From assembly GCA_013391845.1 (NCBI GenBank), contig CP058414.1, positions 2,218,501 to 2,282,500 on the forward strand: DNA of 64,000 nt. Reading direction: 5' to 3'. Under the pieces are notes generated by a model that made no database searches, had not been told where the DNA came from, and was given only the letters and a program-made list of their open reading frames with translations. Numbering within the stretch: the first letter of the stretch is position 1; each line of letters begins with the position of its first letter. Of this stretch, positions 6,123 to 9,917 are shown in pieces. The position numbers and the translations under genes are program-made. The DNA is from Pseudoalteromonas shioyasakiensis. Lineage in GTDB: Bacteria > Pseudomonadota > Gammaproteobacteria > Enterobacterales > Alteromonadaceae.

Positions 6123-7136
6123 TTAAAAATGAATTTTTATAGCAATAATACTGTGGTCACTGACACTGATATCTTCGATTAATTGTGTCGGTGAAATATG
6201 TTTGTCATAACTTTCATAGTCGAGCGTTTTAACCTTAGAAACTTGGCACTCAGGGTTAAAATGCGCTGAGGCGAGAATGTAATCAAGCACATTACCTTTC
6301 CCTTGGTAATAATGGCTGAAGGGTTTTGATTTATTCTCATTAAAACAGCGGCTAAACTCAAAGCTGTCTGTTAAACCAACAACGGGTTCGTTATGTTCTA
6401 TGCAGGGTTCACAACGAGTTGGGTGAAAACCTTGAGTCATAAATGACAATGTCGGACTGGTAAGTACATCATTAAAATCACCCATAACTAATGTTGCACA
6501 CTGTTTTTCTCGCTGGGTTTTAAGGGCGTCATAATAAACAATCGATGCTTCTAGTGATCGTGAAATTTGTGATTGCATGGTGCCAACTGTCTGGTGTAGC
6601 AACTGCAAAAGTGGATCTTCAAGGTTATGTATATTAAGTATGTGCGCCATTGACTGCACTCGTTGTGATTTAAAATGAACCACATAAAAGCAAACTTCAC
6701 CAAATTCAGGAAGGTCAATTAAACACTTAATAGGTGTGCGATTAAATTTGAACTCGTTTTGATTATTTAAATACTCAAGTAATTCGGGGCAAGGTGCTAG
6801 TGCCTCAACTGATTTAAATGGGTATTTACTTGCAATTGCAACCACAGGGTTGAACAATACTTGCGGGTACAACGCATCATGAGATGGGTTATCGACTGTT
6901 TTAAAGTAGTCATAGCCAGCTTCTTTACATTGAACTTCTAAGGCATGTTGACTAAACACTTCTTGAAATGCCACCACATCCGGGCTTGATTCACTCAAAA
7001 AATTAGCAACAAACAATTGTTTTTGTTGCCACTGAGTTTTGTTATACCGCTCATGCAATTGATAAAACGAGTAGGGGGGCGCGGTATAATTTAATAAGTT
7101 AAACGTTGCAAACTTGAAAGAACGCGAGTTTGACAT
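6123..7136 (-). CDS. Endonuclease/exonuclease/phosphatase (EEP) family protein
   Basis: This is a 337-residue metal-dependent hydrolase of the EEP (DNase I-like) fold. The ordered motifs are visible: KFATFNLLN at 7-15 (Asn ligand), DVVAFQEV near 54 (catalytic Glu), HFKSQR near 150, VMGDFNDVLTS near 220 (Asp/Asn pair), LDYILAS near 285 and SDHSIIAI near 327 (catalytic His). It could cut DNA, sugar phosphates or phospholipids, and the substrate cannot be named. There is no signal peptide. AAGGT precedes the ATG. It shares a direction with the DUF3010 gene, but a 58-base gap separates them. Confidence 0.85.
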   Translation of the reverse strand: MSNSRSFKFATFNLLNYTAPPYSFYQLHERYNKTQWQQKQLFVANFLSESSPDVVAFQEVFSQHALEVQCKEAGYDYFKTVDNPSHDALYPQVLFNPVVAIASKYPFKSVEALAPCPELLEYLNNQNEFKFNRTPIKCLIDLPEFGEVCFYVVHFKSQRVQSMAHILNIHNLEDPLLQLLHQTVGTMQSQISRSLEASIVYYDALKTQREKQCATLVMGDFNDVLTSPTLSFMTQGFHPTRCEPCIEHNEPVVGLTDSFEFSRCFNENKSKPFSHYYQGKGNVLDYILASAHFNPECQVSKVKTLDYESYDKHISPTQLIEDISVSDHSIIAIKIHF

Positions 7137-7284
7137 CTTGATTACCTTAAAAGTATTAACTCATTAAGTATGAAATGAGTTAACTAATTGTCAATTTAGT
7201 CTTCTAATTACTTGTATTTGAGTACGTGAGCGGCGACAATGGTCGCTTGTATTTGCGAAGACTCAGTAAATACGAGCTTAATTA

Positions 7285-7310
7285 GCAATGCTTATTCGTA
7301 AAAGCGTTGC
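7285..7310 (+). promoter_or_regulatory. thrS leader hairpin 1, tRNA-Thr anticodon-like (CGT loop)
   Basis: The stem 7285-7293/7302-7310 has 9 pairs, one of them G-U. It closes the loop ATTCGTAA. The loop holds TT-CGT-AA, the arrangement of a tRNA-Thr(CGU) anticodon loop (U33, anticodon, A37). In E. coli, ThrRS represses its own translation by binding two such arms in the thrS leader. This would correspond to the distal arm. Confidence 0.65.
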
Positions 7311-7344
7311 AGAGTTACTTAAAATTAATTTTAAAATATTACAT

Positions 7345-7365
7345 GTGATGCATTGTAGGCATCAC
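7345..7365 (+). promoter_or_regulatory. thrS leader hairpin 2, tRNA-Thr anticodon-like (TGT loop)
   Basis: A perfect 7-bp stem, GTGATGC/GCATCAC, closes the 7-base loop ATTGTAG. A 7-base loop with T at position 33, then TGT, then A is the geometry of a tRNA-Thr(UGU) anticodon arm. It ends 20 bases before the thrS ATG, just upstream of the AAGGAT ribosome site. A bound synthetase would therefore block ribosome entry. It is separated from hairpin 1 by an AT-rich 34-base linker. Confidence 0.65.
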
Positions 7366-7385
7366 CACTGTATTAAGGATGTATA

Positions 7386-9296
7386 ATGCCAGTTATTACC
7401 CTCCCTGACGGCAGTCAGCGTAGTTTTGAAAACCCAGTAAGCACATATGACGTAGCAAGCGATATCGGTCCCGGACTTGCCAAAGCAACCATTGCCGGTC
7501 GAGTTAATGGTAGCCGTGTTGATGCATGTGACTTAATCACCGACGATGCGCGATTAGAAATTATCACAGCAAAAGATGATGATGGTTTAGAGATCATCCG
7601 TCACTCGTGTGCGCACCTTATTGGTCATGCGGTTAAGCAGCTTTTCCCTGAAGCAAAAATGGCAATCGGTCCGACCATCGATAATGGTTTTTATTACGAT
7701 ATCGATATGGAACATTCTTTAAGCCAAGATGATTTAGATGCTATCGAAAAGCGTATGCTTGAGCTTGCAAAAACAAACTACGACGTTGTTAAAAAGACCG
7801 TAAGCTGGCAAGAAGCACGCGATACTTTTGAAGCGCGTGGTGAAACATATAAGATGGAAATCTTAGACGAGAACATCGCAAAAGATGACCGTCCGGGTTT
7901 ATACCATCACGAAGAATACATCGACATGTGTCGTGGTCCACACGTACCAAATATGAAATTCTGCCAACACTTTAAAATTATGAAAGTGGCAGGTGCTTAT
8001 TGGCGTGGTGATTCAGAAAACAAAATGCTCCAACGTATCTACGGCACAGCATGGGCAGATAAAAAGCAACTTAAAGCATATTTAAAACGCTTAGAAGAAG
8101 CTGAAAAGCGTGACCACCGTCGTATTGGTAAAGCACTTGATTTATGGCACTGGCAAGAAGAAGCTCCAGGTATGGTGTTTTGGCACAATGATGGCTGGAG
8201 TATTTACCGTGAACTAGAAGACTTCGTTCGTGAAAAGCTACGTGAGTACGATTACGAAGAAGTAAAAGGCCCGTTAATGATGGACCGTGGTTTATGGGAA
8301 AAATCAGGTCATTGGGACAAATACGCAGATGCGATGTTCACAACTGAATCTGAAAAGCGTGAGTATGCAATCAAACCTATGAACTGCCCAGGTCACGTAC
8401 AAATCTTTAATCAAGGTTTAAAATCATACCGTGATTTACCATTACGTATGGCTGAGTTTGGTTGTTGTCACCGTAACGAACCATCAGGAGCACTTCACGG
8501 CTTAATGCGTGTGCGAGGGTTTACACAAGATGATGCGCATATCTTCTGTACAGAAGAGCAAATCATGGATGAAGTTTCTGCATGTATTAAAATGGTTTAT
8601 GACACATACGAAACGTTTGGCTTTGAGAAGATTGTTGTAAAACTTTCTACTCGTCCAGAAAAGCGTATCGGTGAAGACGAAATGTGGGATAAAGCAGAGC
8701 TTGCGCTTGCTGAAGCACTTAAAGTAAACGACATTGAGTTTGATTACCTACCAGGTGAAGGTGCATTCTACGGTCCTAAGATTGAATTTACACTTTATGA
8801 CTGTTTAGATCGTGCTTGGCAATGTGGTACAGTGCAGCTAGACTTTGCATTACCGGGTCGTTTAGGTGCAACTTATGTTGCAGAAAACAATGAACGTCGT
8901 ACACCTGTAATGATCCACCGTGCTATTTTAGGTTCAATTGAGCGTTTCATCGGTATTTTAACTGAAGAATATGCTGGATTGTTCCCAACATGGCTTGCTC
9001 CTAAGCAAGTAGTGATCATGAATATCACGGATAAACAAGCTGATTATGTGCAAGAAATTGTACAAAAATTAAATAAACTTGGAATTAGAGCCGCTGCTGA
9101 CTTGAGAAATGAGAAGATTGGCTTTAAAATCCGTGAACATACGTTAAAGCGTATTCCTTACTTACTTGTTGTTGGCGATAAAGAAGTTGAACAGCAAGAG
9201 GTGGCAGTACGTACTCGCACAGGTGAAGACCTAGGCAAATTTAGTGTTGATGATTTTATCGCTAAAGTAAGCGAAGAAATTAAAAATCGACAATAA
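7386..9296 (+). CDS. thrS: Threonine-tRNA ligase
   Basis: It charges tRNA-Thr with threonine in the cytoplasm and, in E. coli, also represses its own mRNA. The 636 residues (E. coli 642) show the full layout. An N-terminal TGS domain spans about 1-61. The editing domain starts near 70, with [10 protein letters not shown] as its HxxxH site. The class II core follows, with zinc cysteine in [10 protein letters not shown] near 335, [15 protein letters not shown] near 358, DDAHIFC near 384 and the C-terminal histidine in [13 protein letters not shown]. The anticodon-binding domain spans about 535-636. AAGGATGT places the ATG at 7386. It heads the thrS-infC-rpmI-rplT operon, and its leader holds two tRNA-like hairpins. 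Confidence 0.98.
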
Positions 9297-9342: not shown

Positions 9343-9368
9343 ATTTTATATTCTTGGAGGATCGTACC

Positions 9369-9917
9369 ATTAGAGGCGGCAAGAAAGGGCAACAAACAGC
9401 TCAAAAAAATCGTATCAACGAAGATATTACAGCTAAAGAAGTTCGTTTAATTGGCATTGACGGTGAACAAGCTGGCATCGTGTCATTAAAAGAAGCACAA
9501 GCTATGGCTGATGATGCGGGTGTAGATCTTGTAGAAATCAGTCCTAATGCTGAGCCACCTGTTTGTAAGGTTATGGACTACGGTAAGTTCATCTTTGAAA
9601 AAAGCAAAGAACTAAAAGAACAAAAGAAAAAGCAAAAGCAGATCCAGGTTAAAGAAATCAAATTCCGTCCGGGTACGGATGAAGGTGATTACCAGGTTAA
9701 GCTTCGCAACTTACGCAAGTTCTTAGAAGCGGGTGACAAAGCTAAAATTACTATCCGTTTCCGTGGTCGTGAAATGGCTCACCAAGAAATTGGTATTGAA
9801 TTATTAAACCGTGTTAAAGCTGATTTGGAAGATGTTGCACAAGTAGAGTCTTTCCCAAATCGTGTTGAAGGTCGCCAGATGGTTATGATGATGGCGCCTG
9901 TTGCTAAAAAGCAATAA
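9369..9917 (+). CDS. infC: Translation initiation factor IF-3 (ATT start)
   Basis: IF-3 binds the 30S subunit, keeps subunits apart and rejects poor start codons. The protein has the N-terminal domain with [19 protein letters not shown], a lysine-rich linker (EQKKKQKQ), then the C-terminal domain with [13 protein letters not shown] and [10 protein letters not shown]. The frame has a TTG at 9354, but that lies on the GGAGG ribosome site. The ATT at 9369, ten bases past GGAGG, begins the residues (M)RGGKKGQQ. These match where E. coli IF-3 starts with its AUU codon. The length from there is 182 residues. The AUU start makes translation sensitive to IF-3 itself, giving autogenous control. Confidence 0.95.

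Follow-up and report, generated by a model that had tools for sequence, protein, structure and literature searches.

The window that we analysed is a stretch of 64,000 nucleotides from Pseudoalteromonas shioyasakiensis. It contains thrS, the gene for threonyl-tRNA synthetase (ThrRS), and a 249-nt gap upstream of thrS in which two hairpins sit (Table 1). We refer to the hairpin nearer the start codon as the proximal arm and to the other as the distal arm. Pfam identifies four domains in the ThrRS, so the N-terminal domains are present, and residues 1-635 align with the solved structure 1qf6, which we take to be the ThrRS of E. coli. The nearest ThrRS from a named record, among the matches listed, is that of P. 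luteoviolacea (95% identity). The upstream neighbour, on the opposite strand (6123-7136), encodes an Exo_endo_phos family protein, and ORFs that we read as infC-, rpmI- and rplT-like lie 3' of thrS.

Table 1. Features of the thrS leader and gene (coordinates are those of the window).
Feature	Coordinates	Strand	Remarks
TTGTAT	7212..7217	+	probable -35 hexamer of the thrS promoter
GACAAT	7235..7240	+	probable -10 hexamer; 17-nt spacing kept among congeners
Distal anticodon-like arm (counterpart of E. coli domain 4)	7285..7310	+	9-bp stem, 8-nt loop
Linker (counterpart of domain 3)	7311..7339	+	A/U-rich, 26/29 bases A or T
Proximal anticodon-like arm and outer helix (counterpart of domain 2)	7340..7372	+	UACA-U-GUGAUGC-AUUGUAG-GCAUCAC-CAC-UGUA
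UAAGGA, Shine-Dalgarno-like	7374..7379	+	with the start codon, counterpart of domain 1; weak Shine-Dalgarno
thrS	7386..9296	+	threonyl-tRNA synthetase, 636 aa; TGS, SAD, catalytic and anticodon-binding domains

The candidate thrS promoter is weak (7 of 12 positions match the sigma-70 consensus), and the TTGTAT/GACAAT pair was absent from a stricter consensus promoter scan of the window. A motif of TTGnAn, a 17-nt spacer and GACAAT or CACAAT is found in 27 of 37 congener rows, and 7 more have CAAAAT or GAGAAT as the second hexamer; the motif ends 140-168 nt 5' of the ATG. (Locus L033 has the same leader as L020, so the 37 rows represent 36 congeners.) Because the hexamer pair recurs in congeners with its 17-nt spacing, we predict that transcription starts near 7247, which would give a leader of about 139 nt with both arms inside. 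A terminator-like element called at 7232-7247 coincides in part with the conserved -10 region and is unlikely to be a real terminator.

Both hairpins had been proposed in a first-pass annotation, at 7285-7310 and 7345-7365, and the sequence and its predicted folding bear them out. The proximal hairpin, GUGAUGC-AUUGUAG-GCAUCAC, has 7 base pairs and a 7-nt loop with UGU at 7354-7356, and its 3' end lies 20 nt before the ATG at 7386, as annotated. In two of three folds it is extended by a short outer helix, UACA/UGUA (7340-7343 with 7369-7372). The distal hairpin is GCAAUGCUU-AUUCGUAA-AAGCGUUGC, with CGU at 7297-7299. The letters UUCGUAA that had been given for its loop are there, but the loop is larger than was thought: it has an extra A on the 5' side and reads AUUCGUAA. 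The linker is unpaired in the centroid and partly paired in the minimum-energy fold, and the pairing of the Shine-Dalgarno sequence varies among the predicted folds. The stretch from 7200 to 7420 has a folding z-score of -3.19; taken singly, the two hairpins stand out only modestly from dinucleotide shuffles (distal z = -1.96, proximal z = -1.82). We take the arms to be more than chance because of covariation in the proximal arm and enrichment of GU loops in the distal arm.

For these comparisons we collected 138 thrS leaders (E. coli and 137 others); these sequences are related, and 31 are close congeners, one of them a duplicate, so that our counts are of sequences and not of independent events. 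Locus L140 was dropped for lack of a usable thrS start. Within the order, 9 of 105 leaders (30 main-clade congeners left out) had no detectable proximal arm and were dropped before the distal arm was counted. The remaining 96 leaders have 83 distinct arm sequences and include one of the 31 main-clade congeners and 7 congeners in all. Order membership of the named loci is taken from general taxonomic knowledge, and we assumed it for the metagenome-assembled genomes L051 and L056. The comparison set from outside the order has 69 leaders with 65 distinct arm sequences, all chosen for a match to a covariance model of the proximal arm: 66 come from the 106 outside-order genomes that had a match, and L100, L108 and L112 were added. 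Down to the lowest-ranking match that we used, we left out G420 (at a contig edge), G249 (a partial match), G370 and the second site of G363. For 40 short stretches, the start of the protein confirmed that they lead into thrS (40 of 40).

Among 100 distinct relatives, 98.2% of the pair cells of the proximal arm are paired, compared with 82.7% after shuffling, and 9 of 10 pairs show changes on both sides. The covariation score is 0.545, versus 0.221 for shuffled alignments and at most 0.142 for slid structures. Furthermore, when we picked the best hairpin with a 7-bp stem and a 7-nt loop close to the start codon, blind to the letters of the loop, it was present in 134 of 138 leaders, and 129 had GU at positions 35-36. 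Two features never vary in the alignment: the A at column 3 and the CACT that follows the stem. A covariance model built from proximal arms (the window sequence included) matched the arm with E = 5.5e-10, and at E up to 0.5 the genome has no other match. A strong site (E ≤ 2.6e-7) was found in 50 of 60 relatives, many of whose leaders are also in the model, and each lies directly 5' of thrS. We also searched these 60 relatives for other targets of ThrRS and found no second strong site; there were 15 weaker matches (E from 0.0024 to 0.46). Across the class, at least 110 of 369 genomes have a match (a lower bound, under stricter filters), and the best 30 matches are all directly upstream of thrS.

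In ten leaders (eight distinct sequences), the fourth pair of the main proximal stem is an A-C mismatch. These are Rheinheimera, Idiomarina, Alkalimonas and Colwellia-like (L047, L051, L052, L054, L056, L058, L063, L077, L082 and L104), and the mismatch is perhaps a protonated wobble pair.

The distal arm called for a different test. Of the 31 main-clade rows of Pseudoalteromonas, 25 have one and the same 24-nt core, CAATGCTTATTCGTAAAAGCGTTG (24 of 30 genomes once the duplicate is removed), and 6 deviate from it at a single base; the flanks diverge. Because the stem hardly changes among main-clade congeners, alignment-based covariation is uninformative there; the covariation expected of both stems was found for the proximal one. 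Between genera, the distal stem has different sequences: the hairpin is CGGTA-TTCGTGT-TACCG in Vibrio, GATGGCTT-CTTGTAT-AAGCCATT in Rheinheimera, GATTTAAC-AATTGTGG-GTTAAATC in Dickeya, and CAATTTAGC-ATTTGTTG-GCTAGATGG in E. coli. For this reason we asked instead how often a hairpin has GU at positions 35-36 of its loop. We considered hairpins with loops of 7-9 nt within a stretch of 91 nt directly 5' of the proximal arm, a scan that can miss odd loops. A hairpin with GU (score of 11 or more) was found in 61 of the 96 leaders of the order, while the other 15 dinucleotides were found in 5-28; the highest of these, UG and UA, overlap GU within UGUA loops. An earlier set of 81 leaders, with loops of 7-8 nt, gave a similar picture: 56 had a GU hairpin at a score of 10, as compared to 10-25 for other dinucleotides and a mean of 13.3 (maximum 21) for dinucleotide shuffles. 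The distal arm was under threshold in 35 of the 96 leaders, including Colwellia L058 and L077 and Alteromonas L037, for which a separate scan found none.

The leader closely resembles the thrS operator of E. coli. Both have two anticodon-like hairpins 5' of the Shine-Dalgarno sequence with a linker between them, a proximal arm about 20 nt before the ATG, a weak Shine-Dalgarno sequence (UAAGGA in E. coli as well, in excerpts of PMC3858243), GU in both loops, and a full-length ThrRS. The first-pass annotation had compared the two leaders, and the proximal covariation and distal GU enrichment uphold its view that two tRNA-Thr anticodon-arm mimics precede thrS, as in E. coli. The arrangement is not particular to Alteromonadales: our E. 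coli sequence (L141) reads UGU in its distal loop and CGU in its proximal one, the reverse of the order here. The distal stems of the two are unrelated in sequence, and the distal loop is AUUCGUAA here and AUUUGUUG in E. coli. (In the excerpted text of a review, both E. coli arms contain CGU [PMC7373986], unlike the UGU of the distal loop in L141.)

In E. coli, as described in excerpts of PMC11088916, PMC7373986, PMC3858243 and PMC9976931, ThrRS binds to both hairpins; domain 1 and some of the linker, domain 3, are needed by the ribosome; the ThrRS-bound operator excludes the 30S subunit; and tRNA-Thr competes. The N-terminal domains of ThrRS are required for repression, according to the part of PMC7373986 that we draw on. 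We consider it highly likely that the leader in P. shioyasakiensis is likewise a translational operator of thrS, bound and shut off by the cell's own ThrRS. By analogy, when free ThrRS exceeds the supply of tRNA, a ThrRS dimer would bridge the two hairpins, binding both via its anticodon-binding domains and reading G35-U36 in each loop. The bound enzyme would cover the A/U-rich linker and the Shine-Dalgarno sequence and so keep the 30S subunit off. As uncharged tRNA-Thr rises, it would compete ThrRS off the leader, and translation would resume.

The element is thus a further case of the known E. coli-type regulator of thrS. We found no comparative study of the thrS operator in the open-licence literature; its conservation in some species may be in print. 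An Rfam scan of the leader gave no family over the gathering score, and a relaxed threshold gave one chance-level match to a microRNA (E = 4.9); the E. coli thrS leader had no match at E up to 5. This textbook case of tRNA mimicry seems to be a widespread gammaproteobacterial regulator that is missing from Rfam, and not a speciality of E. coli. The T-box leaders of Gram-positive thrS genes also tune thrS to tRNA charging, and in those the RNA itself binds tRNA; unlike them, the leader here has no T-box match in Rfam. The yeast AspRS and HisRS mRNAs have anticodon mimics too: in excerpts of PMC7373986 and PMC6542539, the message is bound, at an anticodon-like element, by the synthetase that it encodes. 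These involve other enzymes in a eukaryote and are not homologous.

What do the loops mimic? In the proximal loops that we examined, G35-U36 is constant and base 34 can be C, G, U or A. Base 34 varies in the distal arm as well: among 56 leaders (the window and non-congeners of the order with a scored distal arm), it is U in 22, A in 14, C in 11 and G in 9. Hence the expected retention of CGU and UGU across species did not hold up. Nor is the U that precedes the triplet, like U33 of tRNA, a required feature of the mimicry: of the 96 proximal loops from the order, 72 have it. It is rarer there than outside the order (65 of 69), as is A37 (44 of 96 versus 59 of 69). We considered whether a second arm relaxes the proximal loop, and claim no such causal link: inside the order, U33 is present in 45 of 61 leaders with a distal arm versus 27 of 35 without (p = 0.81). 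G35-U36 are identity bases of tRNA-Thr in the E. coli arms (as stated in a portion of the review PMC7373986). The natural variation suggests that ThrRS reads G35-U36 in the mRNA, and not base 34 or U33.

The first-pass annotation had instead proposed that each arm imitates a different isoacceptor (CGU or UGU). On such a reading, the operator could sense two pools of tRNA-Thr separately. Many congeners do look this way: the distal/proximal triplets are CGU/UGU in 24 of 36, and with one case of CGU/GGU, a distal CGU is joined to a differing proximal triplet in 25 of 36. Also, 3 of 60 relatives, all from other genera, have the letters TTCGTAA of the distal loop within matches to a CGU tRNA-like pattern. 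Yet 10 of the 36 congeners have the same triplet in both arms (CGU/CGU in 7, UGU/UGU in 3; the last congener has GGU/CGU), and loops with AGU also occur among the arms. Across the 56 leaders, avoidance of the same triplet was not significant: base 34 is common to both arms in 9, while 11.0 are expected by permutation. The tRNA genes do not fit either. The genome has at least 104 tRNA matches (150 of 318 first-look candidates were scored), and ARAGORN typed 103 of these, including one tRNA-Thr with GGU and four with UGU and none with CGU; the remaining match is the tRNA-Ser of the window. A pattern search of the genome that tolerated as many as 3 mismatches found 24 sites, and CGU was absent from all of them. 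Judging from the genome, it is very likely that the cell has no tRNA to match the distal CGU. An exact pattern for a CGU tRNA-Thr was absent from 36 genomes of the same genus, which is only suggestive of a genus-wide absence, as the UGU control was recovered in just 20 of the 36. Because base 34 drifts while G35-U36 is constant, because some congeners have the same triplet twice, and because no CGU tRNA-Thr was found, we consider the two-isoacceptor proposal highly improbable; by the annotation's own criterion, that CGU and UGU be kept across species, it is refuted. At the level of sequence, the common denominator of both arms is G35-U36, and they track no particular tRNA species.

Alternatively, the proximal arm could be the only ThrRS site, and the distal hairpin could serve as a transcription-factor site on the DNA or as an element in RNA processing or stability. 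The distal 24-mer is indeed an imperfect palindrome that barely changes in main-clade congeners as its flanks diverge, and leaders outside the order manage without it. Loose matches to the palindrome (up to 3 mismatches) are also numerous in the genome, with at least 109 versus 57 for a reversed control among the matches listed. Close copies are another matter: among the matches listed, the 24-mer itself is the sole perfect copy, and one copy with a single mismatch has another loop. Also against this alternative, the hairpin lies downstream of the predicted promoter; other genera have an unlike stem sequence but keep GU at 35-36; and the E. coli counterpart is described as bound by ThrRS (in an excerpt of PMC11088916). 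We regard this alternative as very unlikely, if slightly less so than separate sensing of two isoacceptors. That both arms are chance hairpins in an A/U-rich leader would agree with their modest z-scores, each taken singly, but covariation refutes it for the proximal arm and the dinucleotide controls do so for the distal one, and its probability is close to nil.

The second arm looks like an addition of one clade. Outside the order, 9 of 69 leaders have a distal GU hairpin, which is what is expected by chance (other dinucleotides give 2-30). The difference from the 61 of 96 inside the order is significant (Fisher p = 5e-11, with kinship ignored). Because distal GU is at chance outside the order, a clade-specific second arm is the simplest reading of the sequences, although the scan, limited to 91 nt, can miss odd loops, and 35 of the 96 leaders inside the order also fall below its threshold. 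The genomic context differs as well: according to ARAGORN, at least 45 of the 69 outside leaders have a tRNA-Val(GAC) gene 5' of thrS in the same orientation (one more has it in the opposite orientation), versus no tRNA upstream of thrS in the 96 leaders of the order. (We searched up to 350 nt, and less than that for most of the outside leaders: at least 158 nt, with a median of 261.)

A stepwise history would account for these patterns, and we give it an even chance. The ancestor in Gammaproteobacteria would have had one arm, commonly beside tRNA-Val(GAC); a second arm, giving the symmetrical two-site form that E. coli has, would have been gained in the ancestor of the order, which in this scenario holds Enterobacteriaceae, Vibrio, Alteromonas and Pseudoalteromonas; and on several later occasions the arm would have disappeared or been rebuilt with an unrelated stem, while selection in either loop acted on G35-U36 alone. 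If true, a two-site repressor target evolved stepwise from a one-site target. The natural one-armed and two-armed versions also offer a handle on what the second arm contributes to affinity, cooperativity and the steepness of feedback.

Several other observations concern the arms and their surroundings. In outside leaders, a terminator-like hairpin sometimes follows tRNA-Val(GAC) (loci L203-L276). Two of the outside leaders have a strong terminator-type hairpin with an NGU loop 5' of the proximal arm (L108, from Cellvibrio, AAUCGUAG; L203, GCGGUUG); NGU-loop hairpins are not enriched over all 69. Within Escherichia, E. coli (L141) and E. whittamii (L084) have the proximal arm in common, the DNA upstream of it is unmatched, and the putative distal loops differ (AUUUGUUG and AGAGUGAA), a pattern that would fit the exchange of the whole distal part as one module. 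Genome G363 has an orphan operator arm (L233:2390-2431) that is identical at 41 of 42 bases to the arm of its own thrS (L234). It lies between unrelated ORFs, away from thrS, and might be a relic or possibly a decoy for ThrRS.

Just downstream of thrS, the ORF caller starts infC at TTG 9354. A GGAGG at 9356-9360 is followed by an in-frame ATT at 9369, which looks like a rare AUU start of the IF3 type. (The IF3 of E. coli has a rare AUU start codon.)
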